NCBI GenBank assembly: GCA_949879795.1
Contig: CATLBR010000006.1
Coordinates: 1-64,000 of the forward strand
Reading direction: 5' to 3'
From: an uncultured Hungatella sp.
GTDB lineage: Bacteria > Bacillota > Clostridia > Lachnospirales > Lachnospiraceae
Length of the DNA: 64,000 nt
Below are positions 47,722 through 63,742 of the stretch, in pieces. The stretch's first letter is position 1; the number at the start of each line of letters is the position of its first letter. The notes beneath the pieces were generated by a model, which had not been told where the DNA came from, made no database searches, and saw only the letters and a list, made by a program, of their open reading frames with translations. Made by a program: the position numbers and the translations under genes.

Positions 47722-47827
47722 AGGGTTTCCTCTATCCCGGCCCAATAGCCATAATGGTATCCTTTAGGCTTTCCTCTGTCCCGGCCCAAATGGCCATAAT
47801 GGTATCCTTCAGGATTTCCTCTGCCTC
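47722..47827. repeat. Tandem 44-45 bp repeat, 2.4 copies
   Basis: Units start at 47722, 47766 and 47811 (partial). The shared part includes TTTCCTCT, TCCCGGCCCAA and GCCATAATGGTATCC. The partial third copy forms the last codons of the 1100-residue gene, so the repeat abuts its stop at 47809. Confidence 0.8.
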
Positions 47828-50800
47828 GCCCCCATCTCTTTGGGGCCCTTGACATTTTCTCTGCGCATACTGCTCCAGTCAGTGGTCTGGGTCTTTCCGC
47901 TGCCAAATCTCCGGCTCATCTCCTCAAAAGAACGCCGCATCCTGCCTCCGGCAGCCTCCCTCAACCGTCCTTCCATCTGCCGCTCCTTCTCATTGTCCGT
48001 CACCCAGTCCCCTGTGGCCAGTTTTCCCGCCTGATCCGCCAGCTTTTTCTCTGTCCTGTCTCCCGCCGGGCCGTCCGGGTTCTCCAGATAAGCCCTCAAG
48101 TCTTTCAGAGAAGAATTGGACAGCCCGTCACAGGCCTCCTGGTACTTGGAAAGCTGGTCCATAGGAATCACCGTCTTCCCCATGGTATCGGCCTGAGAAA
48201 CCTGCCGGATCAGCTCCCGCATCACCGCCGTCTGGGCCGCCATATTCCAGATCGCCTTCGGATCATTCATGGTCTTTGGATCCCCCATGATCCCATTCAC
48301 GTAACCCATGTACAGATTTCCTTTATACATGGCACTGTTGAACATATGAATATTCCTTCTGGCCTCGCAGTCCTCGGGAGTCATATTTCGGAAATACTCA
48401 TCCCTGGATTTTCTCATGTCGTCTCCCATTAGGTTCTCCCCAAGATAGTACCCCTGGGACATCTGCTGCAATTCCCTCTGATTCGTAAACAGATAGGTCA
48501 TGGCAGGCATGAGCGTGGCCAGATCTTTTTGGGAACTCATGGCCTCTATCATCTTCTCAGGGGTGTCCACTTCTCTCCCCAGGAGCTGGGAAAATTCCTT
48601 TTTTAAGTCCACCCTGGAAAATTCCTTCACAGCGTCCGCCACCACTCTGCCCACTCCCTCCGGGGTTCTGAGAGCGGCGTTGGTCTCCTGGGCGATACGC
48701 TTCTTTTCGTCCAGTTTTGCCTCCGGGTTCAGAAGATCTTCCAGAGACATGCCGTTTTTCAGCATCTGTCCGTGTAAAATGGCCATGGTACAGGTTGGAC
48801 GGCTGTTGCTGCCAGGCAGACTGATCCGGTAGAAATTGGCGAAACCGTCCATTGTATCCGAAGGATTCTTTTTTTGTTCCGTGTGCGCCTCTTGAAAAGG
48901 AACTCCCAAAAGCTGCTCAAATTCCTGATCTATCCTTTTCGCTCCCCTGAACTGTCTGTCCTTTTCAACCATGGCCAGCCTGGTCAGCCCTCCAGTCAGT
49001 TTCCGGCTCTGGGAATTGAAGGCTTCCCGGCTTTCCGCCTCCATCTGGTTGGCCTGCTGCCACTGTTCTTTTAAGGGAGTGATCTTCCGAATTCCCAGGA
49101 AGTTTAAAAACCGTTGTCCCGCCGTAGGCCTGGGCTCGTGAAGCAGCCCTCCCCGGTTGACGGCTATGGGGGAGCTTAAGGCGTAGGTATGGTCGGGCTG
49201 CTCTTCAAGGACGGCAAAAGAGATCTTCTGATCCGGCTTCAGACCGGCGGCCACGGTCTCATAACGAAACATCTCCGCCTGTTTTTCCGGGTCCAGGTTC
49301 TTATATTTCTCCCCGAAACGCTCCCGGACCGACTGGCCGTTGATCATGATCAGGTCAAACTGGTCCAGGCCAGCCCGTCTCATAAGATCCTGCTGCCGCC
49401 CGGCGCCAAGATAGGCGAAGGTGGTGTCGAAGGTATTTTTCGCGTAATCTTTCTCCATGTCCGTCAGCCTGGAAGGCTTGGCCATGTGGGCGGCCAGGGT
49501 GTTGGCGTCGATGTGGGGATTCTCCTCAAAATTCATGGTCAGAGTGTCCGGGTGCCGCATGGGCAGGGGCTGAATATCCATGATCTCTTCTATGGTAAGA
49601 TTTCTAAGCCCCACCGGCGCCCTCTCACGGATCTCCCTCTCCATCCCCCGGCGGACAGACTCCTGAACCGGCTCCGGCAGTTCCTCAAAAGCCGCCCTGG
49701 GATCCACAGGCCTGTCAGAGTCCCTTGAATAAGGCCCGTTCTGGCTGATCCGGTTAAAGACAGCGCCAAGGAAAATCCGCATGTTGTCCTCGTCGCTCCC
49801 CATGACAAGGGGTTTCCTGGCCTGATCCATACGCCCATCTATGCCTCCGAGGATTCTCTGCCTCATGGCCTCATCAGGGATTCTCCTGGCGGCCTCCCGG
49901 TTCCCCGACGCCAAATCTTCCTTTATGCTGGCCAGGGTGGTCAGCCGCAGCTGCTCCCTATCCGCCTCCTGGTTGATCCGATTCATGGCGGACAAGAGAA
50001 AGCGGGCCACAGGCTCATGTTCCGGGGCGATAAAAGGCAGCTTTTCCTCGTAGCTTCTCTGGTCCATAAGCAAGCCGGAGGCATTTCTTCCGCCGCCGTT
50101 TATCATATTGGCGGGAATCCTGCCCTCCCGCCACTCCTGGATCATGGCCTGGCCGTATTCCTCCCGCAAAGCCCTCTCTTTGTCCTGATACCAGGCGTCA
50201 AAGAGCCGCTCCTCCTCCCGTGACCGGCGGCGTCCCTCCTGCTGCCTTCTCACGTTGTCATCAAAAATTTTCCCGAAGCTGCTGATCTCCCTCTGCAGTT
50301 CCTGTTCTCCCTTTCGATCCAGAAAACTGCCCTCTCCTCTCAGGTAGGCCTCCAGCCGGCCGGGGCGGGAGGTAGAAAATTCCGTGGCGATCTGGTGGAT
50401 CTGCCCCATTTCAGCGGCGATTTCCCCATAAGACCTTCCATGAGTCAGGATCCCTCCCGCCTCGCCCAGAGTCTTTCCCCCGGCCTCCCCGTAAAGGCGG
50501 CTGTGGCGCTCCACCATATACCGGAATTTCACGGCTTCTCCCAGGCCGACAGAACTCTCCCTGCCATAGGCGGACCCTGCTGCCTGGATAAAAAAACTCC
50601 TGCTGTCCATGCGCCGGTCATAGGTCCTCAGATCCTCCTCCCCGCCGAACCCGTCCACAAAAGCCGCTTTTCTCGCCACCCGCTCCTTGGTCTGGGAATA
50701 GTCGATGTGAAGGCTGGTCAAGGTCTCCAGCCGCTGTCTGGCAGCCTCAAAAGTCTCCGGCCTCGCCGGATCCAGCTCAGGAAAAGGTTCCCGGTCCAGC

Positions 50801-51111
50801 TGGTCGGCGGCTCTCCGGTACATCTGGCCGTAGGCCCGAAGGCTCTGGTTCGCCTCCCCCTCGGTCACGTTCTGGGTGGGATTTCTCCTCATAAAATCCA
50901 CGGCTCCCTCCCCGAGCCTCCGCTTCTCCTCCGGGGACATGGCCGCCATCTGGTCCAGAGTATACCCGGAGGCCAGGCCATACATCAGCACAAAACTGGT
51001 TCTGGACACCCCACGGCTTAAGGTGGCGATCCCGCTGGTGTCCGTGAGAGCGGCAAAAAACCGTTCGTCATTGATCTCCTCTCCAAAAAACAACCGATAA
51101 TCAAATTCCAT
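47809..51111 (-). CDS. Large protein of a conjugative element, function unknown (1100 aa)
   Basis: I do not recognise this 1100-residue protein. It is hydrophilic, without signal peptide or membrane segment, and rich in Arg and Glu with many helical charged stretches (e.g. REISSFGKIFDDNVRRQQEG). It opens MEFDYRLFFGEEINDERFFA, and its C-terminus is basic and serine/arginine-rich. It is last in a run of conjugation genes and starts 15 bp after the 246-residue gene. Size, position and cytoplasmic nature would fit a translocated effector, a structural coupling factor or a relaxosome accessory protein, but none is shown by a motif. The 3' end lies in a tandem repeat. Confidence 0.75.
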   Translation of the reverse strand: MEFDYRLFFGEEINDERFFAALTDTSGIATLSRGVSRTSFVLMYGLASGYTLDQMAAMSPEEKRRLGEGAVDFMRRNPTQNVTEGEANQSLRAYGQMYRRAADQLDREPFPELDPARPETFEAARQRLETLTSLHIDYSQTKERVARKAAFVDGFGGEEDLRTYDRRMDSRSFFIQAAGSAYGRESSVGLGEAVKFRYMVERHSRLYGEAGGKTLGEAGGILTHGRSYGEIAAEMGQIHQIATEFSTSRPGRLEAYLRGEGSFLDRKGEQELQREISSFGKIFDDNVRRQQEGRRRSREEERLFDAWYQDKERALREEYGQAMIQEWREGRIPANMINGGGRNASGLLMDQRSYEEKLPFIAPEHEPVARFLLSAMNRINQEADREQLRLTTLASIKEDLASGNREAARRIPDEAMRQRILGGIDGRMDQARKPLVMGSDEDNMRIFLGAVFNRISQNGPYSRDSDRPVDPRAAFEELPEPVQESVRRGMEREIRERAPVGLRNLTIEEIMDIQPLPMRHPDTLTMNFEENPHIDANTLAAHMAKPSRLTDMEKDYAKNTFDTTFAYLGAGRQQDLMRRAGLDQFDLIMINGQSVRERFGEKYKNLDPEKQAEMFRYETVAAGLKPDQKISFAVLEEQPDHTYALSSPIAVNRGGLLHEPRPTAGQRFLNFLGIRKITPLKEQWQQANQMEAESREAFNSQSRKLTGGLTRLAMVEKDRQFRGAKRIDQEFEQLLGVPFQEAHTEQKKNPSDTMDGFANFYRISLPGSNSRPTCTMAILHGQMLKNGMSLEDLLNPEAKLDEKKRIAQETNAALRTPEGVGRVVADAVKEFSRVDLKKEFSQLLGREVDTPEKMIEAMSSQKDLATLMPAMTYLFTNQRELQQMSQGYYLGENLMGDDMRKSRDEYFRNMTPEDCEARRNIHMFNSAMYKGNLYMGYVNGIMGDPKTMNDPKAIWNMAAQTAVMRELIRQVSQADTMGKTVIPMDQLSKYQEACDGLSNSSLKDLRAYLENPDGPAGDRTEKKLADQAGKLATGDWVTDNEKERQMEGRLREAAGGRMRRSFEEMSRRFGSGKTQTTDWSSMRRENVKGPKEMGARQRKS

Positions 51112-51125
51112 AATATCGCTCCCTC

Positions 51126-51866
51126 CTATTTTTTTCTACTTCCCGGCAAATGTCCTCTCTCACCTGGTTCTCCAAAATCTCTGGAAATTTCCTGCCTGTT
51201 TTCCCGGCAGGGCCTTTCCCTCCGCCTCTCCCCCTTTTCCGGCAGAAACTGCCCAGACAGGCTGTCAAAGGATCTTCTGGTCCTGGCCTCCTTTTTGGAA
51301 CCTTCCTCCACCGGGCGGACCCTGGCCTGCTCCCTCTCCTCCACCTGTCTGGCATAGTCGGCCATGGCCTCCTGATTTTTCCGGTACTGCTCCTGCCGTT
51401 CCCGAGAGATCTCATAGTCTTTCTCCTGAGCCTCAAGGTCAGACATTTCCTTCTGGTAAAATCCAAACCCGGACCAGAACTGTTTCCAGCCCCCGGGAGA
51501 GGCGGGTTTGGGGGATACCGGTGGTTTTAAGGGCAGCACGGGAGTGACAGCCGGGATCTCTTCCCTTCCCACAAGCACCGCCCGCATGGGCCTGTCCGTG
51601 TAAAAGCTCAGAGCGATCTCACCCTCTGTCAGGTTGGTGATCACATGGTTGACAGCCATCTCCAGATTGCTGTCATTGACCTCGATCCCATACTTTTCCC
51701 TGTAAGATTCCCCCTCCACTCTCAGCCGGTCCAGTACGTCTCCCACGCTGGCCTTGGTCACCTGAAAATCAGGGTCCCCTCCGCCGAACAGCCGGACAAA
51801 CTGGGCCTTCACCTGCTCATAAGCGCCCCCTGCTCCGCCCTCCAATACCACCCCGGATTTTGGCAT
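51126..51866 (-). CDS. Conjugative-element protein with charged C-terminal half, function unknown
   Basis: A 246-residue soluble protein. An N-terminal globular part (GGAYEQVKAQFVRLFGGGDP to ALSFYTDRPMRAVLVGREE) is joined by a proline-rich linker (PVLPLKPPVSPKPASPGG) to a long Glu/Arg/Gln coiled-coil tail. Start ATG 51866 follows the preceding stop by one base, so the two genes are tightly coupled. No family recognised. Confidence 0.7.
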   Translation of the reverse strand: MPKSGVVLEGGAGGAYEQVKAQFVRLFGGGDPDFQVTKASVGDVLDRLRVEGESYREKYGIEVNDSNLEMAVNHVITNLTEGEIALSFYTDRPMRAVLVGREEIPAVTPVLPLKPPVSPKPASPGGWKQFWSGFGFYQKEMSDLEAQEKDYEISRERQEQYRKNQEAMADYARQVEEREQARVRPVEEGSKKEARTRRSFDSLSGQFLPEKGERRRERPCRENRQEISRDFGEPGERGHLPGSRKK

Positions 51867-51867
51867 A

Positions 51868-52572
51868 CTACTGCCCCCCTGCCTCCTTAATGTGATAGAT
51901 ACCGGCTCCCGACACCGCCTCATACCGGATCAGCACGCCTCCCGCCGGAATCCAGGTTCCATTTTTCAACCCATAACTGTTTGTCTCTTCCCAGCTGGAA
52001 TAAATCGCCTCTGACACCACAACTCCCCCTGGACAAACCCCTGCCAAAAAGGCTGAGAGGGCTTGAAAATCGTACCATATGGTATTATTTTTCGACCCTC
52101 TGGTATTGCTCAGCTTGCACTTGAGACGTAAAATATACCCATCCGTGGCCTCCTCTTTATAAAAGCTGAACAGTTCCTGATCCTCCGGCCCGAGATAGGT
52201 GATCCTCTTATCCTCCAGGGTCACGCTCCGGGATTCCCCGCAGTCCTCCCCCACAGTCTTCATCATGGCCCTCATCCGCTCCTCCCAGGACAGGAGGCTT
52301 CCCGCCTGGGAAGCTGTGAGAAACGTATTCCGGTTGGGAATCCGGGCTCCCAGGATCTCCCGGTTCTCCCGCCAGATCCCGCTGCTGTCCACATAATATC
52401 CGTCCGGGGAAAATCCGTCATGGACGAAACTTCCGTCCTCCTGGACGTATCTCCAGCCTCCGCCGTCCACTCTCTCCCAACCGGCACCGAAAGCCGTGTC
52501 TGAAAATAAACACATAAAGATCAGACAGAAGACCCCTGCTCTTTTTCCCATCTTACCTCTGTTCTTTCCCAT
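51868..52572 (-). CDS. Secreted protein with cell-wall-binding-like repeat
   Basis: A 234-residue exported protein. The signal peptide (MGKNRGKMGKRAGVFCLIFM ... AFGA) is followed by a segment GWERVDGGGWRYVQEDGSFV and DGYYVDSSGIWREN that resembles choline/glucan-type cell-wall-binding repeats. A C-terminal domain of about 140 residues is unrecognised (FSFYKEEATDGYILRLKCKL). Start 52572 has GGAGGAAAA upstream; the longer upstream frame is not coding-like. It belongs to the conjugation gene run and probably acts at the donor surface. Confidence 0.75.
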   Translation of the reverse strand: MGKNRGKMGKRAGVFCLIFMCLFSDTAFGAGWERVDGGGWRYVQEDGSFVHDGFSPDGYYVDSSGIWRENREILGARIPNRNTFLTASQAGSLLSWEERMRAMMKTVGEDCGESRSVTLEDKRITYLGPEDQELFSFYKEEATDGYILRLKCKLSNTRGSKNNTIWYDFQALSAFLAGVCPGGVVVSEAIYSSWEETNSYGLKNGTWIPAGGVLIRYEAVSGAGIYHIKEAGGQ

Positions 52573-52716
52573 GATTTTTCCTCCATTTCCCCAGGTTCCC
52601 ACCAAAAGTTCCGTTGGGAAGCCGATCATTCCGCTTTTGCCCTCCGGGCAGCGTCTCCTGCCAGAGCGAATGAATACCAGCAGTGTCTGGCAATCCTGAA
52701 CCGATGTCACGATGTT

Positions 52717-52740
52717 GGGGTCAAAAGGTCTTTTGACCCC
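52717..52740. repeat. Perfect 11-bp palindrome
   Basis: GGGGTCAAAAG / CTTTTGACCCC with a 2-bp loop, followed by TCTGATACC. It resembles the element at 40285-40340. It lies upstream of the 234-residue gene, in a 439-bp gap (52573-53011) with no gene. Confidence 0.7.
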
Positions 52741-52816
52741 TCTGATACCGGATTACTCCGCCCTTTGTGTTCCTGCAATCCTCATGTCACTTAGTTAAGC
52801 GAATTCCGTCGTTGCT

Positions 52817-52928
52817 CTCCGTGAGCCTGGACCGTCAGGGCGAATTAATGCTGTGGAGAAGAGACCTGTTTTTCGGGCTCTTCGGAACGTTTAGCAATTC
52901 TGAGCCCAGACGGTCCAGGCTCACGGAG
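52817..52928. repeat. 112-bp palindromic element with 20-bp perfect arms
   Basis: Arms at 52817-52836 and 52909-52928 are perfectly complementary (CTCCGTGAGCCTGGACCGTC and its complement). Inside, GGGC-GAATT-GCT pairs with AGC-AATTC-GCCC, and AAGAGACC with GGGCTCTT, giving a long bulged hairpin. It is a single copy in the window. It lies between the giant lipoprotein gene and the secreted-protein gene. Confidence 0.8.
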
Positions 52929-53011
52929 GGCCCCACGAATACCTAAACGAAACCTAAACCCAGACAGGAAACCCTGCCCAGAGGCCCCGCGAATCCCCAA
53001 GGCAACACGGT

Positions 53012-56000
53012 TCAAGGTTCCGATTTTTTCTTCACTTTTTCCGTATCCATATCCAGCACAAGTCCGACTCCGCACTTTCCCAAAATCTCTGACAGTGTTT
53101 CCTCCCAGCCCCCTCTTCCCGTCTTTTTCTCAGCTCTGTCCAGAGGTTCCCTCATCTCTTTAATAACCTGGTAAAATTCAGCGGACCGAAAGGCCTTTCG
53201 CCTGCCCTCCTCTGTCTCAAACACCGTCTCCTGATAGTTCTTAAACTCTTCTCGGAAAGGGCTGGTCTGATAGCCGGCCGTTTTTAGTTTTTCTTCTACG
53301 ATCAGTTCCTCTATCTCCCGTATCCGGCTCATGGCGGACAATTTCTGAAGAAGAGACTCCCGATCCACAATCTCAGGGCTGAACCCTGTCAGCTCATAAA
53401 ATTGCTCCAGGCCCTGCTCCTGTTTGTTTACCACGCTGTCAGGGCTGACCCGTCCCAGCAGATCCTTAAGATAAGGTTCCCACTGGCTATCCTCTCCCTG
53501 ATCCAGGAAACTCTGCCGTATGTCCCCCAGCACCGTCTCATAGCAGGCCATGTTTTCCATGGAAGCCAGTTCCTTTTCCGTCTTCATATTGGGATCCCAT
53601 GGCTTTTCCAAGGCATCCTGGGCCTTCTGCTGGTCCTGATACTGGCTCTCCCTGTCATTGAGGGCCTTCGCCGCCTGCCTCTCCTGCTGATATTTCCGGT
53701 ACTCCTGCCGCCTGGCCGGTTCCATGTTTCCTATGGCCTGGTCGGACAGTCTCAAGTCCACTAAAAGATTCTCCAAGGTCTTCTCGTAGGCGGCGCTGAT
53801 CAGAAGCCCTTCCTTCTCCAGAAGTTCCGCATCCTGAGCGGGAAAGGGAATCCCCGGCCCAAGGCCTGCCAGCTCATAGATTTCCCGGACAGCCTTTCTC
53901 TGGTCCAACAGCTTTTCTCTCAGCCAACGCCCATAAGTTCTGGTATCCTCCGAGATACGGGAAAATCCCATCTGGCTGGCTATATGTTCCAGTTCCAGGT
54001 CCTGATCTTCTTCGCTCCCGTAAAAAAGGACTCTGGCCTGTCTGTCGGCCTCTTTTTCTTCCTGGTCAGGCTCCAGGATCTTGTAGCTTCCGGCCTTGTC
54101 GACTCCCTCACCCTGTGACCAGGAAAGCCTGTGGGTCCTGTCCAGATATCCATTAGCCAGACTGTCCAGATGGTCCCTCATGGCCTGGCCCTCCAGGGCT
54201 CTCTGGGTCTCATCCAAATCCATGGAATAGCACTTGGCCCTGGAGATATCCGAAGACTGATAGACATATTCCTCTGTGTCATATCCCACCACCATGAATT
54301 TCCGGCTGACAGACCCGCCCTCGTCAGCTTCTTTATAGGGAAAAGCCCGGTAATAGGCCCCTGACTTGAGACTGATGGCAAGTCCGTTGTTCAGATTCAC
54401 CAACATGATTCCCTCTGAGAGGGAACTGACTACCACCTGATCTTTATTTAAAAGACAGAACTGGTCCGCCCCGTAGGTGTCCGACGCCCTGCCCTTTTCC
54501 GTCTTCTCCCTGATCATGTCCTCCTGTTCCTGGGAAACCCAAAGCTGCCCTTCCGTCTTTTCACCGGTCAGGGTCTCCTGTCCATAATGGCTCACCCCAT
54601 AGCTTTTCACCGGGGAGGAAAGTTTGTCCAAAGTGAGAAACAGCCCTGCCCCCACATCGAAGGTGCCGTCCGGATTTTTGGCTCTATAAAATTTGATTCC
54701 CTCATCGGTCACATAAAAGACTACTTCCGTACCCTCTCCCCCAGCCGGGTCTTCATTGGAATCATAGAGCATTCCCACATCAACGGCCCGTCCCGGCACA
54801 TTCTGATCCCACAAAATGTCTCTGCCGTTATTGTAGCGGATACGGCTTTTTACCGGTTCCTGGTTATCTGCCTCTTCCTCTGTCTGTTCCATTTCCGTGT
54901 AGTAGATCCCTCCCAGCTCCCCGGAGGCTGCCACCATCTCTCCCGTGTCCACTTCCTCGATCCAGTTCACCTTTGTTCCCTCTGGGAAAATCAGGCGATA
55001 CCCGGTGGGATAGGGAGCCAGGGTCTCCTGTATGGTTTTGACCACCCTCTGTACAGAGGAATCGCCTCCCCCTTCTGACCCGCCGGATTCCCCCTCACTG
55101 TCTTCTCCGCCGCCAAAGTCCCCCGGACCGCCATCACCTTCCGCTTCGCCAGAATCTCCCGGCTGGCTGCCACTGGTTTCCTGTCCATCATCACTCCCCG
55201 ACTCACCGTCTCCGGCTTCCTCCCGTACAGGCTCTCCCAGTTGTCCCACAGTCTCATAGTAGGAAAATTCCCTGACAGGGGCCAGATCACCTTCCTCAGA
55301 CCTGGCCGTAACCTCCATGGCGGGCCTGGAATGACTGGGGCTTTGATACTGGCCTGGCAATTCAATGTCAGCGTAGCGGCTCACCGCCTGCCTTCCCCCT
55401 GCCCCCTCATAAATACTGGTCTTGTAGGCGTAAACTGCCTCCAGGCCATCGGCTGTCTGGCCGGCAAAGGGTTCCTGGTTGACGTTTTGGTCCTGCTGCC
55501 AGTTTCCAGGCGCCAGCCATGGGATCAGAAGATAATCTCCCGGATCCATGCCGAGATTAAGCCGGTTCTTGATTCCCTGATCTCCCTGGGCCAGAAGGGC
55601 CAGAGACTCCTTTGCCGCCCCTCCCATCTCTTTCCTCTGATTCTCGTCAAAATACCTCCAGAAAATCTCAGGCTGATACCTGCCTTCCCAGGCCGCCCAG
55701 ATTCCCAAATAAAAAAGCCACCGGTTCCTGAGATTTTTCCAGCTCCAATCATTGGCCTCCAACAACTGCCCCAGGGTTAGCTGACAGGAACCCTTTACCT
55801 GGTTGCTCTGGCTCATCCGGTACAGGGTAGAAGAAAACAGGCTGGGAACGCCTGCCAGTTCCATGTTCAGGGTGTTGTTGGTGGTTCGGAAAGGGCTGAA
55901 CCTGTCCGGAACCTTACCTGCCAGCCCGGCCTTGATGTTGTCCATGGTGTAGAGTTCCATGTAGCGTTCCAGATCCTCCAGACTGTGGAAAATCCCCTCT

Positions 56001-57172
56001 TCATCGGTGTTGGCGTCCTCTGTATTCAAGGTCTGCCAGCACCTTACCTGGTCCTCCCACGCCGTGTTCTGAGAATAAAAACCCACAGCAGAGTCCCTGC
56101 CTCCCATATCCAGGTCGTAGCAGGCCACAATGGTTGTAAAGGTGGTATTTTCCACCACCTCATTTTCTTCAAGGTTCCCGTCATCTCCCTCCCCCTCTTC
56201 TTCCATGGGAAGCTCCACCGTAATAGGGATATACACGTACCACATTCCGTCCATGACCACATCGGAAATGGTGACTTCCGCTTTGGCCAGCAGCTCAGCC
56301 GCCTTTTCCCCTCCCCGGCTGGCCGCCTTCTGCTTCAGCCGTGACGCTTCCTGGCTGATCAACGTTCCAAAATCATTGCGGTAAAGTTCCCTGCCCTGAT
56401 CATCATACACATAGGCCGTGGTTCCGCTGAAAATAAAATACTGCCTGTTTCTCACCAGGCGGCTGGCCATGACCCTGGATTTTTCCGCTGAATTTCCCGT
56501 CTCCGCCTGATCTGCCCCGTCTGCCTTATTCCTGCCGCCGTCCAGAATACAGCTGTAGAAAACCTTGTAAGCCCTGGTCCAGGGATTATAGGACATCAAA
56601 ACCAGCACATCATTTCCGGTATCCTTTTCCGCTGTGCCTTCTGGCCCTTTCTCCCCAGCGCCTTCCGTCTCTTTCCCCGCAGCGCCTCCTGCCTCTTTCT
56701 CCGCAGCGTCTTCTGTCTCTTTCTCTGTGGCGTCTTCTGTCTCTTTCCCCGCAGCTTCCTCTGTCTCTTTCTCTGTGGCGTCTTCTGTCTTTTGGGGCGC
56801 TGTCCCCTGAACCGCCAGGACACCAGAGGCCTGCTCTCCGTAATAAGGCGTGCGGTAAGCGTAGATAAAATCACCCTGGTCCGTGTAATCCAGCACCTTG
56901 AAATCAATGATTTTCTCCGGTTCGCTCTCATGATCCGGGAGAATATAAAAGGCATCCCTGCCTTCTATATCATACTTTCTCTCCTGATCCTCCTCTGTCA
57001 CAGCCTGGATCCTGGCACCCACCTGCTCATTGAGATCAAAAACCGGAGGAAGTGTCTCAGGCTCAAAACTCTGAAACCGAAAATCCCCGTTATAGATAAT
57101 GGAATTACAGCCTGTGAAAAAAACACATGCCGCTGACAAAACCACACATATTATCCTTTTCACAATCCGCAT
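53012..57172 (-). CDS. Giant lipoprotein of a conjugative element (1386 aa)
   Basis: An unrecognised 1386-residue surface protein. The signal peptide MRIVKRIICVVLSAACVF ends in FFTGC with the lipidated cysteine at residue 22. Residues about 130-187 are an imperfect KETE/DATEKETE-type acidic repeat. A Gly/Ser/Asp/Glu-rich linker lies near 650-710. Between and beyond are beta-rich globular parts, and the C-terminal third is helical and charged. It follows the pilin gene in the transfer cluster after a gap filled by the structured elements at 57199-57738. A role in cell-cell contact or in the outer transfer channel is plausible but inferred. Start has AAAGGA upstream. Confidence 0.8.
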   Translation of the reverse strand: MRIVKRIICVVLSAACVFFTGCNSIIYNGDFRFQSFEPETLPPVFDLNEQVGARIQAVTEEDQERKYDIEGRDAFYILPDHESEPEKIIDFKVLDYTDQGDFIYAYRTPYYGEQASGVLAVQGTAPQKTEDATEKETEEAAGKETEDATEKETEDAAEKEAGGAAGKETEGAGEKGPEGTAEKDTGNDVLVLMSYNPWTRAYKVFYSCILDGGRNKADGADQAETGNSAEKSRVMASRLVRNRQYFIFSGTTAYVYDDQGRELYRNDFGTLISQEASRLKQKAASRGGEKAAELLAKAEVTISDVVMDGMWYVYIPITVELPMEEEGEGDDGNLEENEVVENTTFTTIVACYDLDMGGRDSAVGFYSQNTAWEDQVRCWQTLNTEDANTDEEGIFHSLEDLERYMELYTMDNIKAGLAGKVPDRFSPFRTTNNTLNMELAGVPSLFSSTLYRMSQSNQVKGSCQLTLGQLLEANDWSWKNLRNRWLFYLGIWAAWEGRYQPEIFWRYFDENQRKEMGGAAKESLALLAQGDQGIKNRLNLGMDPGDYLLIPWLAPGNWQQDQNVNQEPFAGQTADGLEAVYAYKTSIYEGAGGRQAVSRYADIELPGQYQSPSHSRPAMEVTARSEEGDLAPVREFSYYETVGQLGEPVREEAGDGESGSDDGQETSGSQPGDSGEAEGDGGPGDFGGGEDSEGESGGSEGGGDSSVQRVVKTIQETLAPYPTGYRLIFPEGTKVNWIEEVDTGEMVAASGELGGIYYTEMEQTEEEADNQEPVKSRIRYNNGRDILWDQNVPGRAVDVGMLYDSNEDPAGGEGTEVVFYVTDEGIKFYRAKNPDGTFDVGAGLFLTLDKLSSPVKSYGVSHYGQETLTGEKTEGQLWVSQEQEDMIREKTEKGRASDTYGADQFCLLNKDQVVVSSLSEGIMLVNLNNGLAISLKSGAYYRAFPYKEADEGGSVSRKFMVVGYDTEEYVYQSSDISRAKCYSMDLDETQRALEGQAMRDHLDSLANGYLDRTHRLSWSQGEGVDKAGSYKILEPDQEEKEADRQARVLFYGSEEDQDLELEHIASQMGFSRISEDTRTYGRWLREKLLDQRKAVREIYELAGLGPGIPFPAQDAELLEKEGLLISAAYEKTLENLLVDLRLSDQAIGNMEPARRQEYRKYQQERQAAKALNDRESQYQDQQKAQDALEKPWDPNMKTEKELASMENMACYETVLGDIRQSFLDQGEDSQWEPYLKDLLGRVSPDSVVNKQEQGLEQFYELTGFSPEIVDRESLLQKLSAMSRIREIEELIVEEKLKTAGYQTSPFREEFKNYQETVFETEEGRRKAFRSAEFYQVIKEMREPLDRAEKKTGRGGWEETLSEILGKCGVGLVLDMDTEKVKKKSEP

Positions 57173-57215
57173 TTCTCAAAATCCTTTCCGTTTTTTGTGG
57201 GTTGGCAGAAGGTCC

Positions 57216-57424
57216 GTCCCGTCAGGATTGGAATACCATTCGGGCACGCTTTCGCTCTGGTTTGCCAAGCATGTCCGAAAGCCGCCAGTGGCGGTTTCGG
57301 ACACCTCTGCAGCGGTACGTGATGTCACCAACCGTCAGGTTGATGACCTGCTTGCGCTTCAGCGCAATTCCTCTTGGACCGGCGAGGCAAATGTCCCTCA
57401 TTGGTATTCCAATCCTGACGGGAC
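57216..57424 (+). repeat. Family B structured element 1, 23-bp perfect arms
   Basis: The arms 57216-57238 and 57402-57424 pair perfectly (starting GTCCCGTCAGGATTGGAATA). Conserved core blocks shared with element 2 are ATTCGGGCACGCTTTCGCTC, TGCAGCGGTAC, GGACCGGCG and GGCAAATGTCCCTCATTGG. Extra internal hairpins are TCCGAAAGCCGCCA/TGGCGGTTTCGGA, GTCACCAACC/GGTTGATGAC and TGCGC/GCGCA. Confidence 0.88.
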
Positions 57425-57583
57425 TACATCCTGGCAAGCCACAAAAAGAAGCCACGGAAATAGAATCTCTACCTGTAAAGTTTTCTGTGGCCCAAGGTAT
57501 AACTGCTATCTCTCTAAGTCTGTGAATACACAACGAGCGGAACATATTTTTAGGGAGCGATTTTCAGGCTTGCCGGTGTAGTA

Positions 57584-57720
57584 GTCGAACCCCGCTCCTG
57601 TTCCCAATGAGGGACATTTGCCCCGCCGGTCCTTAGCTCGCGTATTTCGCGAGCTTAGTACCGCTGCAGGGGCAACCAGAGCGAAAGCGTGCCCGAATGG
57701 GAACAGGAGCGGGGTTCGAC
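57584..57720 (-). repeat. Family B structured element 2, 23-bp perfect arms
   Basis: Inverted relative to element 1 and shorter (137 bp). Its arms (57584-57606 and 57698-57720, starting GTCGAACCCCGCTCCTGTTC) pair perfectly with each other but have no similarity to the arms of element 1, while the core blocks are nearly identical. A different internal hairpin (AGCTCGCG / CGCGAGCT) replaces those of element 1. Confidence 0.88.
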
Positions 57721-57748
57721 GGACTTTCCCGCCAACCCTGACCCCAAA

Positions 57749-58096
57749 TCAGCTTCCCGACTGTTTGGTTTCCAGTGAGATCCCGGTTCCGCCCTGTGTG
57801 TTCATCCATTTGGTCATGGCGGGAAGCATCAGGTTCAGCGCCGTGATCAATACGAAGATCAGCACAAACCCGATGATGGCGTTTTTCAGCGCCCCCTTTG
57901 CTTTCTCTCTGTCCTGAGGCTCCTCGGCCTTCGCCAGTTTTACTCCCAGAAATACACAGTACAGTGTTCCCAGGGCTCCCACGATCAACAGAAGCGGCCC
58001 TGCCGCCATGTTGATCAGGTCCACGATGGGCTTTGCTGCCGTCTGAAACGGGTTGCCGCCGGTCAGGGCAACAAGTTCTAACATTCCTGACATCAT
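57749..58096 (-). CDS. Pilin-like conjugal transfer protein (Mbov_0395/TrbC-VirB2 type)
   Basis: A 115-residue membrane protein with two hydrophobic segments (about 27-52 and 72-95) separated by a short basic cytoplasmic loop (KLAKAEEPQDREKAKGAL), the layout of VirB2/TrbC-like pilins and of the Mbov_0395 group. It would form part of the type IV secretion channel in the membrane. Start has AAGGAGGAG upstream; a second ATG follows directly. It sits 34 bp after the Ig-like membrane protein gene. Confidence 0.82.
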   Translation of the reverse strand: MMSGMLELVALTGGNPFQTAAKPIVDLINMAAGPLLLIVGALGTLYCVFLGVKLAKAEEPQDREKAKGALKNAIIGFVLIFVLITALNLMLPAMTKWMNTQGGTGISLETKQSGS

Positions 58097-58130
58097 GTCT
58101 CCTCCTTGTTTGGAATATGTTTTTTGTTCT

Positions 58131-59459
58131 TTATAACACCTTTATGGTCCTTCTCCAGTAGACGAAACCTGCCGCCCCCAGAAGAAGAATGGCAAAAGGA
58201 ATTACAAGCAGTTTTTTATTCCAGACAGAATACCGGTTCTGTATGGAAAAATCATAGTCCCGCATATTTCCCGCCTGGTCTTTTACCTCCACATGATAGA
58301 CCCCGTTCGCGGCGATCTGCCCCATGGAAGCATAGGCCTCCTGACGGTTGCGCAGGATACGGGTTGTGGCCATGGGCTCTGAGGAAGTGAAAGTGACAGG
58401 ACCATCCAGAAAGCACTGGTCCACATACCGATCAAATCTCAACGCCGGGGCCACGGTATCCCTGGTAAAATTCATCTCCCAAAAGCCTTTGCCCCCAGGC
58501 TCCGCAAACAAGATCTTATACTGGCCGTCCTGTTCCGTGTGAAAGAAATCTTCCCCTGATTCCACCGGCTCTCCGTCCAGAAGAACAGAGGCCACAGACA
58601 GGCCCATGGGAGCGTTTATGTGGGACAGGTTCATGGTTCTGTCTATGTAAAGGCGAAAGCCTATGGTCACATGGTAGCTCACCTCTCCCGCCAGGCCCAG
58701 AAGATTGTCTTTCATGACGATCTCATAGCTTCCCGGCTGATTGAACATAAGCCCGTCGGAAAAATCGGTCAACTCCCCGTCCCGGCGGACCTGAAAGGCC
58801 ATGAGGCCGTCGGACAGAGAAAGTCTGGCCTGGCCCCGGAACCACCCGCCTACGGGCACGTTGGTGTCAAAATACTGGCCGTCTGGAAGCATATAGCGAA
58901 ACAGCCCTTCTTTTTCATTGTATTTCAGAGTGAGAGGGGGATTTTCCTCTACCGTCACCTGTCCTGAATTCGCCGCTGACCGCAGAGCCTCTGTGTAATC
59001 GTTGTCGATCTGAAAGGTAAAGACGCCGTAGTTGCCGTCCCGCTCCGGTGTGGAGTAGATCCGCAGCTCGTAGGAACCGGGGTCCAGCACGATTCCGTCC
59101 TGAAACCCTGTCTCCTGGCCGTCCTGCCACAATGTAGGAAAACAATTTTCATCCAGGTCAAACACAGCCGCCTGCAAGGTCTCTCCCTCCGTGCCATTGA
59201 CCGTAAAACTGCCGATTCCGGAAACCGTGTACTCGTAGCCGTTTCCCACGTCCTCCCCTGTCATGACGCAGGGAATGGGCCCGCCCTGGGCAAAGGCAGT
59301 CATGAGCCACAAGAAGGACAGAAGGAAACCGGCCCAGAGGGCGATCCTCCTTTTCGCCGCCCGGCCTCTGCCTGTCCGGCCCCGGTCCACTCGGCGGCTG
59401 ACTGCCTGATCCGGATCCTCCCGGCTCACAACTGCCTGGCCATGCTCCTCCCGGTTCAT
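58131..59459 (-). CDS. Type I membrane surface protein with Ig-like regions, conjugation cluster
   Basis: A 442-residue protein. The basic N-terminal 35 residues are followed by a hydrophobic segment (IALWAGFLLSFLWLMTAFAQ). A beta-rich extracellular part of about 340 residues follows (YEYTVSGIGSFTVNG, DPGSYELRIYST, NGVYHVEVKDQAGN, the last Ig/Big-like). A C-terminal membrane anchor (LLVIPFAILLLGAAGFVYW) is followed by RRTIKVL. It overlaps the preceding gene by 4 bp (ATGA), so they are translationally coupled. It may mediate contact or line the outer channel. Confidence 0.75.
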   Translation of the reverse strand: MNREEHGQAVVSREDPDQAVSRRVDRGRTGRGRAAKRRIALWAGFLLSFLWLMTAFAQGGPIPCVMTGEDVGNGYEYTVSGIGSFTVNGTEGETLQAAVFDLDENCFPTLWQDGQETGFQDGIVLDPGSYELRIYSTPERDGNYGVFTFQIDNDYTEALRSAANSGQVTVEENPPLTLKYNEKEGLFRYMLPDGQYFDTNVPVGGWFRGQARLSLSDGLMAFQVRRDGELTDFSDGLMFNQPGSYEIVMKDNLLGLAGEVSYHVTIGFRLYIDRTMNLSHINAPMGLSVASVLLDGEPVESGEDFFHTEQDGQYKILFAEPGGKGFWEMNFTRDTVAPALRFDRYVDQCFLDGPVTFTSSEPMATTRILRNRQEAYASMGQIAANGVYHVEVKDQAGNMRDYDFSIQNRYSVWNKKLLVIPFAILLLGAAGFVYWRRTIKVL

Positions 59460-59896
59460 AACTGCCTTCCCTTCGTCTCTTTCACCGCCTGGTCCTGAGC
59501 CATCCCCGTTTCCCGTAATTCACGGCCAGGTTGATTTCTCTCTGTCAAAAACTCCCCCGCCTGACCACGTTCCGTTTCCCGATACTCAGCGCCAGGCTGA
59601 CCTCCTGTTTCCCGAAACTCCTGTCCCGGCTTCCCGCCCCTCTCCATGGCCCCCTGGGCCTGCCTTGCCTGGCGCTCCGGTCTTTCCCTTCGGCGAGTCT
59701 GTTCCCCCTCCACCCGGGCCTCCAGCTCCTTTATGGTGATCCGTTTTCGGTAAGGGTTGTCCTGGCGGCTGCCTGCCTTCCCCTCCCTGTCCACCGGGGA
59801 ATACCCGTTTGTCTTCCTTCTGGCCTTCTCCTCCCTCAGGACAGACAGCTTTCTCTCCCAGAGGGCTCTGTTTTTGGGACTGTCAAAAAATGCCAT
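59456..59896 (-). CDS. Small charged conjugation-cluster protein, function unknown
   Basis: A 146-residue, very hydrophilic, probably disordered protein (MAFFDSPKNRALWERKLSVL, then Gly/Gln/Glu/Arg-rich repeats such as GQEFRETGGQPGAEYRETE). No domain recognised. Start has AGGAGG upstream. It begins two bases after the stop of the binding-protein gene and overlaps the next gene by 4 bp. Confidence 0.7.
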   Translation of the reverse strand: MAFFDSPKNRALWERKLSVLREEKARRKTNGYSPVDREGKAGSRQDNPYRKRITIKELEARVEGEQTRRRERPERQARQAQGAMERGGKPGQEFRETGGQPGAEYRETERGQAGEFLTERNQPGRELRETGMAQDQAVKETKGRQL

Positions 59897-59898
59897 GG

Positions 59899-60666
59899 CT
59901 ATTCCTCCTGAGCCTGTTGGTCGAGAAAGGTATTGATGGCCTGGTTCAGGCTGGCCACAAAGGTTTCCTGGCCCGGCGCCGTGTAAAAGACCTGGCTGAT
60001 CCTGGGCCCCTCCCTCAGTTCCATGGCCTGAATCTCCTGATCCCGGCCCAGAAGCCCCAGGGCCTCCCGCTCCGTACAGATCCCCGCCAGGATCACCCCC
60101 TCCTTCACGTCCTCCGGAATCTGTCCCACATCGCCGTAGGTCTGTCGGCCCAATTCCCCTATAAAAGGAATGTTCAGCGCCTCAAACCCCGGAATCTGCC
60201 AGGAAAGTCCCACGGTTCCGTCAGAATATCCTGCCAGATTGTCCACATACCGGTTCCTCCGTGTGATGAGATACAGCCCCTGCTTTCCGTAACTGCGGGA
60301 GGCCAGGTGGGTGTCCCTGTAGGTCTCCGTCATGGTCAGTCGGCCTGCGGCAAGATCCACAGCCCCGTCGTCCAGAAGAGCCATGAGCTGACTGACATCC
60401 TCCGCCTGCCGGTACTCTACCGTGACCCCCAGGTTCTCCGCCAGAATCCGAAAAATCTCCGGCTCCATGCCCACAAACTCACTGCCCTCTTTCCTGGCAT
60501 AAGGGTCCTGCCCATCCAGAATTCCCACCGTCAGAACGCCGTCAGCCACCACACTCACAGTCTCCTCCTGCTGGGCCTTTTCAGGCGAACACCCGGCCCC
60601 CAAAAAAGCCGCCGCCAGAACCGGAAGAATAACCACCGCCCCTCTCCCCATTTTTTTCTTCTTCAT
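59899..60666 (-). CDS. Solute-binding lipoprotein (SBP_bac_3 type) in the conjugation cluster
   Basis: A 255-residue lipoprotein. The signal peptide MKKKKMGRGAVVILPVLAAA leads to LGAGC with the lipidated cysteine at 26. The rest is a type II periplasmic-binding fold of the polar amino acid group (VLTVGILDGQDPYARKEG, VGMEPEIFRILAENLGVTVE, LAAGRLTMTETYRD). No permease or ATPase is near; the neighbours are transfer genes. It could be a sensor or surface receptor for the element rather than an importer part; this is inference. Confidence 0.83.
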   Translation of the reverse strand: MKKKKMGRGAVVILPVLAAAFLGAGCSPEKAQQEETVSVVADGVLTVGILDGQDPYARKEGSEFVGMEPEIFRILAENLGVTVEYRQAEDVSQLMALLDDGAVDLAAGRLTMTETYRDTHLASRSYGKQGLYLITRRNRYVDNLAGYSDGTVGLSWQIPGFEALNIPFIGELGRQTYGDVGQIPEDVKEGVILAGICTEREALGLLGRDQEIQAMELREGPRISQVFYTAPGQETFVASLNQAINTFLDQQAQEE

Positions 60667-60863
60667 AATCTCTTCCTTTCCTACCGATGTTGACTTTCGC
60701 CCCCTGATACCACGAATCGCTTCACACCACGTATCTACGCCCCGCTTCAGTCATTGCCAAACGACTGTCACTGGTATCCGGCACCCCGCTTCTCCATTCC
60801 CTAGCGGTCGGACTCATCCTGACAAGCTGTTGATCTGTTATTCCAGAAACCAAAAACCTGGCT

Positions 60864-61023
60864 GAATATTCTGAAATTATATTCCAGGAAAAGCCATTAC
60901 ACCATGGAGCTTAAGACCATAAAAAACAGGAGGGCCCTCTGCCCGACTGTTTTTTGCTTTACTGGGCTTAAGCGGAATGCCTGGTGTACCAGGCTTTGTA
61001 TGGAATATAATTTCAGAATATTC
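60864..61023. repeat. 160-bp palindromic element, family A copy 2
   Basis: Perfect 22-bp arms 60864-60885 and 61002-61023. Inner stems AAAGCC/GGCTTT, ACACCA/TGGTGT and GCTTAAG/CTTAAGC surround the same core as copy 1. Relative to copy 1 the outer arm, the third and the fourth stem differ by changes on both sides that keep pairing. Flanks AACCTGGCT and AACCTTGGCT resemble each other. It lies in the 379-bp gap (60667-61045) between VirB4 and the binding-protein gene; the rest of that gap shows no gene. Confidence 0.88.
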
Positions 61024-61045
61024 TCACAACCTTGGCTTTCACAAA

Positions 61046-63742
61046 TCACATATCAAACAGCTCCTCGATCCCCTTAGCCGCCACGATATCCACGCAGGTC
61101 CGCTCCGACGCCGATGTGACCACGAAGGCCCGGCCCCTGCCGTTGTTGACGATATCCTCCTGCTCGCTCTCGTTGATGGCTCCCGCCTTCTCGTACAGCT
61201 TGCACAGATCCTCCATGTCGTTGGGGGCCAGGGGGAAGATAAAGGAATACTGGCTGGCGTTGATGATGGCCGTGGATTTGCGGGCCAGCTCCTCGGTGCC
61301 CACGAAATCCTTGATGTTCTGGGTGATCACGATCTGCATGCCGTTGTATTTCCGGATCCTCTTGGCCAGCTGGTACATAAAGTCCAGGGCAATGGGATAT
61401 TTGCTGTCGATAAACACATGGGCCTCGTCGATGACCACCACGATCTTCCGGTTGGCCTTATACTTCATATTGTATTCCCGGTTTTTGATGATCTCATTGT
61501 CCAGCCATTTCAGCACCAGAAGCATCTGGCCGTTGGCGATGATGTTGTTCTTGTTGGCAAGAAGAGACTGGAAATTAAATACAATAAAGTTCTCGTTGGT
61601 GCTGATACTGGCCTCCCCGTTCCACAGCACAGCGTTGCGGCCGCCCTGGGCAAACTTGGAGATATAGTTTAGAAGCACCTTCAAGTTGTTCTTGATATAG
61701 TCGCCGGAGCTGGTCTGGACATCGTTGATGATCTTGTCGTAAAGATCGTCAAAAATGGGGTAATCCCCAGGCTCCAGCTGGCTTAAATCCGTGTTCTCGT
61801 CGATTCCCTTCTGCTCATACATGCGGATCGTCATGGTGTTCAGATACTCCAGGGCGTCAGAATCGATCCCGGGAAGAATCTGCCGGTAAAACTCCTCCAG
61901 GAACTGGAGATGAGTGTGAAAGCTGGTGGCTGCCTGGTCTTCGCCGCTGCCCTCCTCCTCGTCGGAGAGGGTGGTGATAATATGAAAAGGATTGAGCCGT
62001 CCCTGGCTGGCGCTGCCCACGTCGATGATCTTCCCGTGCATATTCTGGGCCAGCTTGGTGTACTCATTCTCCGGGTCCAGGATAAAGATCTTGCTGTTTT
62101 CCGCCGCCAGCTGGGTGAGAATGGTCTTGGTGGCATAGGATTTTCCCGAACCCGACTTTCCGATGATCACCGTGTTGCTGTTGACCCTCTCCTTGTCCCT
62201 CTGGAAAAAATTGATAAACGCCGGGCTGCCCCCGGACTGGCCGATGTAGATCCCGTCCTTGTCCCGCAGATGGCGGACCACATAGGGGAAGGAGGCGGCC
62301 ACGGAGTTGGAGTGAATTCCCCTCTGGTAGCTTTTAAAAGCGTCGTATCCCGAGAGCTGGGAAGAACTGTAGGCCTCGAACTGCTGAAGCATAAGGTCCG
62401 TCACCTTGAACCCTTCCTCCGCCAGATCCCGGCGGACCTGACGCTTAAAAGAAGCCAGCTTCCGGGAATTTTCTCCAACCGGCTGACGCCGGGCCTGGGA
62501 CAGCTCATAGTCATTGACCGTCACAAAGGTTCCCACATTAAACAAAACCTCGTTCTCCCCCTGGAGAAGGCGGAGAACCTCTGACAGGGTGTCGATGTGC
62601 ATACCCACCTCCATCAGCTTGCTGGTCTTGCTGGTACTGGACTCCTGCTCCCTCAGCTCGTCGATGGACCGGTCGATCTGCCGGATCCCCTTGTACCGGT
62701 CCATGGGGGTCATTTTCATCACCACCTTGGTGCCCATCTGGTTGAAAAATCCTGCCCCCCAGGCATTTCCCACCATCATAGGGTAATCCCGGACACGGAA
62801 ATTGTGGGTGATCAGATCGTCGAACTGGACCGTCCTGGGGCCGAACTTGACAGTCTGGGGCATGATCCAGTTGCGGAAATCCTCTGGTTTTAAATCCCAG
62901 GCCTCCCTCTCGTCGAAATTCATGCCATAGCTGTACTTTAGGAAAATGGCCAGCTCCGGCCCTGTGAGCTGATGACACTCCATGTTGTTGACAGCAAAGG
63001 AAGCCATGGCCTCCCGGATCTGATTGTGGAGGAAATTCTTGTCCTTGTGGCAGAACATCAGGTAATGGACCGGCTGGAACACCTGGTCCCTGGTGTTAAA
63101 ATTCTCCAGCTGCCGGATCCGGTCATAGATGATCCCCACCCGAACCGTCAGCTCCTCGTCGTTGAAGAGATCATTTAAATAGGCCTCCTCCAGTTCCTCC
63201 TCCTTGCCCTTCTCGCCCTCAATAAAATCGTCAAAAAGCAGAGGCTGGTCCAGCTTCACCAGACAGATGGTCTCGTCCGCGGCGGCGGTGCGCAGGACGG
63301 CCCCAAAACACCGGTCGATCATGCTGTTCTGTCTGCTCTCGCTGTAGAACCGAAACTCCACCGACGGAACCCTCATGACCACGGCGCTGTGGCCGTTTAA
63401 GTACCGGATAAATTCCCCGTCAATGTCCGTGAACGGCGTAATGTCCTCCACGGAAAAGGCGGAAGAAGACTTTGTCTGATCCCTCCGGTGAAACACCCGT
63501 CCTCTGGCAAAATATTTGACCACATAGAAGAGAAGCTGGTATCCCTTGTCGTCGTCTAATGGAAAGATCAGGGCCACGGTGATCAGGATCACCGCCATCA
63601 TGAGCATCAGCCTTCCCGGAAGATTGGACACCAGAATGGAGACAGCAAGGCCCATCCCCATACTGCCCACCAGAACGTCCATCAGCTCAATGCCCTTGAA
63701 CAGCTCCATTCTCACTTTCGTTCGTTTCGGTATGATCCTCAT
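61046..63742 (-). CDS. PrgI-VirB4 fusion, type IV secretion ATPase
   Basis: An 898-residue motor of the conjugative type IV secretion system. The first about 90 residues hold a PrgI/VirB3-like part with paired hydrophobic segments (LVGSMGMGLAVSILVSNLPG and LMLMMAVILITVALIFPLDD). The VirB4/CagE N-terminal domain follows, then the ATPase with Walker A IIGKSGSGKSYATKT (about 526-533), Walker B KIVVVIDEAHVFID (about 767) and VITQNIKDFVG. Start has GGAGGAG upstream and overlaps the previous gene by 4 bp (ATGA). This is the surest marker that the region is an integrative conjugative element. Confidence 0.94.
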   Translation of the reverse strand: MRIIPKRTKVRMELFKGIELMDVLVGSMGMGLAVSILVSNLPGRLMLMMAVILITVALIFPLDDDKGYQLLFYVVKYFARGRVFHRRDQTKSSSAFSVEDITPFTDIDGEFIRYLNGHSAVVMRVPSVEFRFYSESRQNSMIDRCFGAVLRTAAADETICLVKLDQPLLFDDFIEGEKGKEEELEEAYLNDLFNDEELTVRVGIIYDRIRQLENFNTRDQVFQPVHYLMFCHKDKNFLHNQIREAMASFAVNNMECHQLTGPELAIFLKYSYGMNFDEREAWDLKPEDFRNWIMPQTVKFGPRTVQFDDLITHNFRVRDYPMMVGNAWGAGFFNQMGTKVVMKMTPMDRYKGIRQIDRSIDELREQESSTSKTSKLMEVGMHIDTLSEVLRLLQGENEVLFNVGTFVTVNDYELSQARRQPVGENSRKLASFKRQVRRDLAEEGFKVTDLMLQQFEAYSSSQLSGYDAFKSYQRGIHSNSVAASFPYVVRHLRDKDGIYIGQSGGSPAFINFFQRDKERVNSNTVIIGKSGSGKSYATKTILTQLAAENSKIFILDPENEYTKLAQNMHGKIIDVGSASQGRLNPFHIITTLSDEEEGSGEDQAATSFHTHLQFLEEFYRQILPGIDSDALEYLNTMTIRMYEQKGIDENTDLSQLEPGDYPIFDDLYDKIINDVQTSSGDYIKNNLKVLLNYISKFAQGGRNAVLWNGEASISTNENFIVFNFQSLLANKNNIIANGQMLLVLKWLDNEIIKNREYNMKYKANRKIVVVIDEAHVFIDSKYPIALDFMYQLAKRIRKYNGMQIVITQNIKDFVGTEELARKSTAIINASQYSFIFPLAPNDMEDLCKLYEKAGAINESEQEDIVNNGRGRAFVVTSASERTCVDIVAAKGIEELFDM

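Follow-up and report, generated by a model that had tools for sequence, protein, structure and literature searches.

The DNA examined here, a window of 64,000 nucleotides from an uncultured Hungatella sp., contains on its minus strand a gene cluster of the conjugative-element type (47809-63742). Three genes from this interval are listed in Table 1, and a Pfam search of three further large ORFs of the cluster gave no match. Between a type IV secretion pilin gene (PF18895, 3.2e-13) and a 1386-aa ORF without a Pfam match lies a head-to-head composite of two structured copies, A and B, in inverted orientation. We call such a pair divergent, meaning that the structured strands point away from each other. 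The 1386-aa ORF itself carries a low-complexity repeat at about 56600-56800, and EKETEDA / AGKETE residues recur in it.

The initial annotation, which was made from the sequence alone, had described this locus as a nested palindrome at 57199..57738 with a conserved core on unrelated arms. The locus is right and the interval slightly short, as matches to the covariance model R1 span 57193-57744. Both pairs of arms are indeed complementary at 23 of 23 positions, all by Watson-Crick pairs; at equal base use, 64 kb should hold about 2e-7 perfect inverted repeats of 23 bp with loops no longer than 200. All four of the core blocks listed in that annotation are found in both A and B, and the inverted arrangement inside outer inverted flanks was also seen: A and B share inverted-repeat blocks of 36 nt (I1, 89%), 29 nt (I3, 97%) and 15 nt (I6, 93%), and the flanks around A (I5) are 82% complementary. 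The internal hairpins differ as described, in that copy A has an extra hairpin and a longer apical hairpin than copy B. The statement that the arms have no similarity between copies was too strong: 10 of 23 positions agree in the same orientation, mainly at the ends (GTC...CCA), and the sequences otherwise differ.

Folding was compared with that of 200 dinucleotide shuffles. The z-scores were -9.2 for copy B as RNA, -11.1 for copy B as DNA and -9.7 for copy A as RNA, and in each case none of the 200 shuffles folded equally well. At the curated threshold, Rfam found one tRNA in the window, off the copies; at E-values up to 5 it added miRNA-precursor models alone, below threshold, on two stretches. 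Copy B is one of the 20 sequences from which R1 was built, and copy A is absent from the alignment (A1).

The element is absent from the same gene junction in five relatives. This junction measures 576 bp in the window and about 110-170 bp in the five loci (L346-L350) where the same two genes are neighbors, the latter spacing being estimated from the ends of protein matches at junctions too diverged for the insertion point to be read. These five were the loci with a clear neighbor gene among nine further pilin loci, and L351-L354 were left out. The genomes of L346-L350 gave no BLAST match to copy B, and the single R1 match seen in G015 lies on a different contig from the pilin locus. One of the loci left out, L354 (G000:C14:39481-39777), is a second pilin homologue in the window's own genome, with two stop codons within the match.

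Table 1. Coordinates of the composite and of neighboring genes in the window
Feature	Position	Strand	Remarks
Copy A, entire covariance-model match	57193..57448	- (structured strand)	R1, 102.3 bits, 1-187 of 187
Copy A 5' arm (GTCCCGTCAGGATTGGAATACCA)	57402..57424	-	23/23 Watson-Crick with 57216-57238
Copy A 3' arm	57216..57238	-	Pairs with 5' arm; inverted repeat I2
Copy A head, 163 nt	57239..57401	-	Inner stem, apical stem, mini-hairpin, expanded peripheral hairpins; from sequence and fold
Copy A mini-hairpin, GC-GAAA-GC (GNRA loop)	57248..57255	-	
Extra hairpin of copy A	57272..57303	-	Related optional hairpin in L002, L038, L042
Outer inverted flank of copy A	57192..57213	not assigned	Partner 57426-57447; I5, 82% complementary
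Spacer between divergent copies A and B, 110 bp	57449..57558	not assigned	
Copy B, entire covariance-model match	57559..57744	+ (structured strand)	R1, 190.0 bits, 1-187 of 187
Copy B 5' arm (GTCGAACCCCGCTCCTGTTCCCA)	57584..57606	+	23/23 Watson-Crick with 57698-57720
Copy B 3' arm	57698..57720	+	Pairs with 5' arm; inverted repeat I4
Copy B head, 91 nt, minimal form	57607..57697	+	From sequence, folds and alignment
Copy B mini-hairpin, GC-GAAA-GC (GNRA loop)	57681..57688	+	
T4SS pilin	57749-58096	-	PF18895
SBP_bac_3 protein	59899-60666	-	
TraG-like P-loop protein	61046-63742	-	PF19044, 6e-19

Spread and anatomy of the family

BLAST with copy A identified additional copies on contigs C4, C6 and C32 of the window's genome, and BLAST with copy B matched 5 of 61 genomes, that of the window among them. 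With R1, for which 150 of 439 candidates were scored in the window's genome, we obtained at least 10 matches there; 3 of these are opposite-strand shadows of palindromic copies, which leaves at least 7 copies, and the one on C7 is truncated. A covariance-model search with copy counts per genome, as the initial annotation had proposed, showed that at least 78 of the 200 genomes examined from the window's family carry R1 matches, as do 77 of its 199 sampled genera, when 13 candidates were scored per genome. We take this family to be Lachnospiraceae because the named carriers largely belong there. In a class-wide sample, 7 of 291 genomes had matches, and all 7 belong to the window's family. Copy numbers can be high: with 150 candidates scored and shadows not purged, Eisenbergiella tayi DSM 26961, whose genus is a member of Lachnospiraceae, has at least 135 matches, and Lachnospiraceae bacterium CE91-St56 has 31. 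A scan of named genomes with the core pattern found at least 80 loci, with labels that are largely Lachnospiraceae or unclassified Clostridia/Clostridiales; Eisenbergiella, Mediterraneibacter, Blautia and Butyrivibrio are among the genera of the matches listed, and the few metagenome-assembled genomes labeled Muribaculaceae or Selenomonadaceae may be mis-binned.

A set of 184 copies was assembled from 193 matches by removing 9 overlapping opposite-strand shadows. Such shadows (36-54 bits) are retained in the totals given above for the 200 and the 291 genomes, for E. tayi and for CE91-St56. The set retains a few partial matches, and 33 further matches, most of them in stretches already covered, were kept out of it. 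Loci picked by the exact core pattern supplied 97 of the 184 copies, and the letters of the apical stem are to that extent conserved by choice; the GNRA loop described below lies outside the pattern.

We considered whether R1 might match hairpins generically, which is argued against by the class-wide result, with all 7 carriers in the window's family, and by the conserved letters of core and loop. An element borne by phages, plasmids or viruses was likewise rejected in two narrow tests, each of a single query: copy B was unmatched in plasmids and phages, and one exact core pattern occurred in no viral contig. Rfam searches of 15 loci with copies identified a tRNA in L128 and a 'drum' RNA in L180, neither on a copy, and none of the copies tested has the Rfam match that would have told against the initial annotation's idea. 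The element is an abundant repeat of a major gut-bacterial family, and we found no published description of it in the titles and abstract openings of open-licence papers on repeats of Lachnospiraceae, Butyrivibrio and Eisenbergiella and on MITEs. The MRSC-65-2 motif, in the portion of PMC11109978 that presents it, is likewise a multi-copy structured candidate for a mobile or repeat element, with strong covariation and a possible function as DNA. That motif is a single long stem with UYCCGG repeats from diverse phyla, whereas the element here combines a junction with a GNRA hairpin and has different conserved blocks, and by description we set the two apart. Some undescribed mobile or repeat candidate of the same paper could be related to the element here.

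In its simple form, the element is one long palindrome in which terminal inverted repeats (TIRs) are followed by hypervariable complementary arms and, at the apex, by a conserved head of some 90 nt. The head consists of an inner stem, an apical stem and a mini-hairpin of the form GC-GNRA-GC. The sides of the apical stem, CCGGT-CTTAG and CTTAGTACCG, are kept and its tip covaries, and some copies, copy A included, have extra hairpins. On the structured strand, the loop of the short junction hairpin is of the GNRA type in 145 of the 163 copies in which it was located (GAGA 64, GAAA 43, GGGA 14, GCAA 12, GGAA 10, GTAA 1, GCGA 1), the loop having gone unlocated in 21 of the 184. The arms differ in extent: copies of the window's genus have a perfect stem of about 23 bp followed by an imperfect outer stem, and in CE91-St56 and E. 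tayi the arms extend over 62-112 alignment columns.

RNAalifold predicted 51 pairs in an alignment of 20 copies, of which 29 had changed on both sides, a number reached by none of 500 shuffles; homologues thus keep complementary arms of changing sequence, the outcome on which the initial annotation had made its idea depend. Pairing holds in 96.8% of the cells of the unfitted 20-copy alignment, which scores above all 500 shuffles and above the slid versions on each of five measures; the cells of these and of the later paired-change counts are not independent, as the copies share ancestry. Strong covariation in the head and inner stem, and a GNRA loop read on one strand, would suit a stand-alone family of structured RNA genes, trans-acting non-coding RNAs or ribozymes, with stems under RNA selection and copies that spread as passengers. 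A mild G.U excess on the GNRA strand of the inner stem also speaks for such genes. We nevertheless judge them distinctly unlikely: single genomes hold dozens to more than 100 matches, the orientation of neighboring genes is mixed, duplications lie directly at the ends of the element, and the long arms have no excess of wobble pairs, nor have the head helices once a single consensus G.U pair is set aside (see below).

Among the 143 of 184 copies with both neighbors called (by mechanical ORF calls), flanking genes fall into four orientation classes of 47, 40, 30 and 26 copies. By eye, a few copies lie just 5' of an apparent start codon and ribosome-binding sequence; a cis-regulatory RNA was rejected in view of the mixed orientation over these 143 copies. 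On the 3' side the nearest called ORF lies at a median distance of 47 bp, and such very stable hairpins near genes could be bidirectional terminators or stabilizers of mRNA ends, with arms that vary as pairing alone matters. The ends in CE91-St56, which read A-run, stem, T-run, agree with this. In genome G022, however, the runs are on the wrong sides (T-run before, A-run after), termination needs no conserved junction head with a GNRA loop, and the duplications and copy numbers argue against terminators as well; we regard this explanation as exceedingly improbable.

Mobility in two relatives

Most copies in CE91-St56 are 238 bp long, with ends GGGTGYAGATAAAAA / TTTTTATCTRCACCC and 9-bp direct repeats on their flanks. 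We examined 29 loci in this genome and recognized both ends in 23 copies. At least 8 of 9 bp of the duplication match in 12 of these and all 9 in 8, compared with 1 of 506 swapped flanks, in which the left flank of one copy is set against the right flank of another. The elements of a second relative, G236, have ends around AGGTAATTGCGAAACT and duplications of 10-11 bp; at least 10 bp match in 8 of 12 elements, which were picked for having both ends visible, compared with 0 of 132 swapped flanks. The other 11 of 23 copies in CE91-St56 and 4 of 12 elements in G236 fall below these thresholds. From these target-site duplications (TSDs), the element is mobile in CE91-St56 and G236. A third genome, G106, has duplications at 2 of 5 loci (10/10 and 10/11), a count made without a swapped control. 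The initial annotation had opposed a new structured element to a core that matches a known transposon end. The family is structured, as was proposed, yet in relatives it is also mobile DNA with TIRs and TSDs, and on this evidence the element is both mobile and structured.

The features by which MITEs are recognized were found in several genomes. Copies within one genome share TIRs in CE91-St56, G159 and G236, where the end sequence occurs 97, 152 and 62 times and the reversed pattern 2, 0 and 4 times, respectively; TSDs are present in CE91-St56 and G236; and the elements are dispersed, multi-copy and free of an internal transposase gene, for which their length of about 190-530 bp is too short. 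For G159 no duplication length stood out, and the ends reach further out than first placed. Within the window's genus, the window composite included, neither a TSD nor an unambiguous TIR was found; ends TTTTTCGTTCAGG...CTGAACGAAAAA are common to two G022 composites and are not clearly present in the window copy. Prokaryotic MITEs, as presented in the part of a review drawn on here (PMC10969869, including QMITE2), are similarly small, non-coding, bounded by TIRs, TSD-making, dispersed and highly base-paired. Unlike the MITEs of that account, the element here is most conserved at its apex, with ends and arms that differ between the genera examined; its long arms change largely by paired substitutions, one junction head occurs in many genera, and no parent insertion sequence (IS) was found in the scans made.

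Shortened versions also occur. CE91-St56 has six short end pairs without a head, and two short elements of G236, 130 and 114 bp long, have duplications and are among the eight counted above. These look like internal deletions of the palindrome, and they are therefore silent on whether the head is needed for movement.

The element would be moved in trans by a transposase of the cut-and-paste type that recognizes its ends, presumably, given duplications of 9-11 bp and inverted ends, a DDE transposase and perhaps one of the IS4 group. ISLre2, the sole transposase family searched for (E up to 0.001), was found once in G248 and not in E. tayi, and as the partner transposase of the latter it was rejected. 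In CE91-St56, G106 and G236 the places examined, and in G159 those listed, contained no IS-sized element with the same ends.

Two observations concern the ends themselves. The bases next to the G236 end AATTGCGAAACT vary among L375-L382 (AGGT, AAGT, AGGC, AGAT); these bases are mostly complementary between the two ends and lie inside the duplication. In CE91-St56, solitary GGGTGYAGATAAAAA ends with no recognizable partner within 2.3 kb occur at L300-L307 and L309-L311, and are either decayed elements or another use of the motif.

How the arms stay matched

Arms change faster than heads. For 25 E. tayi copies, the innermost 60 nt of the arms have a median pairwise identity of 0.58 (shuffled 0.52) versus 0.83 for the heads, and for 22 copies in CE91-St56 it is 0.82 (shuffled 0.47) versus 0.96; choosing these copies by a 13-nt motif of the head lifts head identity slightly, and the omission of copies with an N near the core, near the end of a locus or lacking the end or core pattern also slightly favors conserved heads.

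The initial annotation read complementary arms whose sequence has been replaced as pointing to selection for the paired structure. As a conclusion from the arms alone this is not supported. Of the 142 arm cells deviating from consensus in the 22 CE91-St56 copies, 80 are compensated, 2 are changed on both sides and unpaired, and 60 are one-sided (37 mismatched, 15 Watson-Crick, 8 G.U); L267, whose arms are unrelated, was left out of this count. In the head helices of the same copies, only 2 of 26 departing cells are compensated and 24 are one-sided. Such a difference fits rewriting of the arms. Wobble pairs tell a similar story for the long arms of CE91-St56 and E. tayi, with 30 G.U versus 50 A.C. 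Selection at the RNA level predicts G.U intermediates and predicts that head helices should behave alike; neither is seen in CE91-St56 and E. tayi, which favors copying of DNA from arm to arm. The one-sided mismatches of young arms, at 37 cells, are not rare and count against pure arm copying.

What stands of the earlier claim is a structured family, and in its inner stem a mild G.U excess gives scope for some selection on the folded strand. Across all genera, isolated G.U pairs in this stem number 47 and A.C 28 (two-sided p 0.037), so that some strand-specific selection on pairing is likely there; the model-fitted alignment, with its bias in favor of pairs, gives 119 and 30. For the head, the same alignment gives 187 G.U versus 76 A.C; a single consensus G.U pair accounts for 110 of the 187, and setting it aside leaves 77 and 76. 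We read these results as a head under selection, an inner stem partly so and outer arms maintained by self-copying.

The arms would remain near-perfect largely through copying of one arm from the other during DNA synthesis, and template switching in a long palindrome would rewrite both arms at once. Mutation patterns compatible with template switching have been reported in RNA genes, and the hairpin maintenance described in the part of that report consulted (PMC8794818) is the process that we propose for the arms here; the helices of RNA genes in that account have 2 to 10 consecutive pairs, and here 62-112 alignment columns of a mobile element would be involved. We also considered whether arms might be copied from the insertion target by fold-back synthesis, which was dropped: E. 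tayi copies that share ends have, by eye, related though diverged arms, and arms are common to most copies in CE91-St56. The many copies of the family, with their conserved heads and rewritten arms, document in nature how long near-perfect palindromes change, and they make the template-switch model of compensatory evolution testable. It is also a warning that covarying stems alone are no proof of selection on RNA.

Taken together, these repeats are probably small mobile elements of Lachnospiraceae, MITE-like and non-coding, in which the arms are self-copied and the head is selected. Selection would maintain the head because source elements require it in single-stranded, folded form, either as DNA during mobility or as RNA. 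If the head does act as RNA or folded DNA, it would be a new structured nucleic acid present in about four in ten of the genera sampled (77/199).

The most puzzling part is the occurrence of different ends and duplication lengths under one head, and on this basis another reading can be put forward, tentatively and as a rather unlikely one. The head would be an independent selfish module, one folded strand, either RNA or single-stranded DNA, that contains a junction as well as a GNRA hairpin and has been carried across Lachnospiraceae in transposon frames with unrelated ends and with duplications of 9 versus 10-11 bp, its palindrome being rewritten arm from arm. Such a head would recruit moving or repair machinery, so that the element keeps its head and exchanges its ends. 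BOX, RUP and SPRITE of Streptococcus, in the portion of PMC3049150 used here, are MITE-like too, and BOX is modular; in S. suis different modules flank the same boxB modules, which is the nearest precedent found for one core with different ends. As described there, boxB folds largely apart from the stem of boxA and boxC, whereas the head here tips a continuous palindrome, a comparison made by description.

Composites and arrays

The window composite belongs to a more general pattern. Neighboring copies less than 1.5 kb apart (n=28) are divergent in 18 cases, tandem in 10 and convergent in none. Repetitive extragenic palindromic sequences (REPs) are 20-40 bp long and often occur in inverted pairs, and the preference for head-to-head pairs is one reason to consider a REP/RAYT-like element moved by a Y1 transposase. 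A strand-specific fold fits as well, with a mini-hairpin that is very stable as DNA too. So does GTAG beside the foot of the hairpin, which is present in many copies of the window's genus; it is, however, not evident in copies of CE91-St56 or E. tayi. Duplications of 9-11 bp with inverted ends fit insertion of the DDE type and not Y1 chemistry. The REP/BIME sequences with RAYT transposases, in the part of PMC3733652 that we used, are alike in being dispersed palindromic repeats, but the elements here, at about 190-500 bp and with TIRs and TSDs in relatives, do not fit REPs in length. We consider this origin very improbable, and return to MITE-like elements as the preferred reading.

One head-to-head composite is present twice in G022, inverted and 8 kb apart, with 84% identity over 532 aligned columns. 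Movement or duplication thus involved the composite as a whole. Of 8 longer spacers between neighboring copies, 4 contain an ORF of 100 aa or more and the other 4 lack one.

Several loci have arrangements that are more complex. At L087 7960-8695 (G036:C85), the DNA between two divergent copies consists of tandemly repeated units of about 70-80 bp (GTTGCCTAAACGAAGG...GGCACAAAAGGCAAGTTGGGA) without a 100-aa ORF. In L101 4090-4765 and L102 4394-4951, both from G159, three or four copies follow one another head to tail at intervals of about 165-190 bp, and units of 350-415 bp with at least two heads seem to be present in the same genome, judged by lengths only. Just past 3874 in L140 (G022:C130), beside a composite, lies an apparent collapsed remnant in which the outer ends are joined, with neither arms nor head between them (TTTTACGTTCAAGAGGTTGGC...TGCCAACCTGAA).
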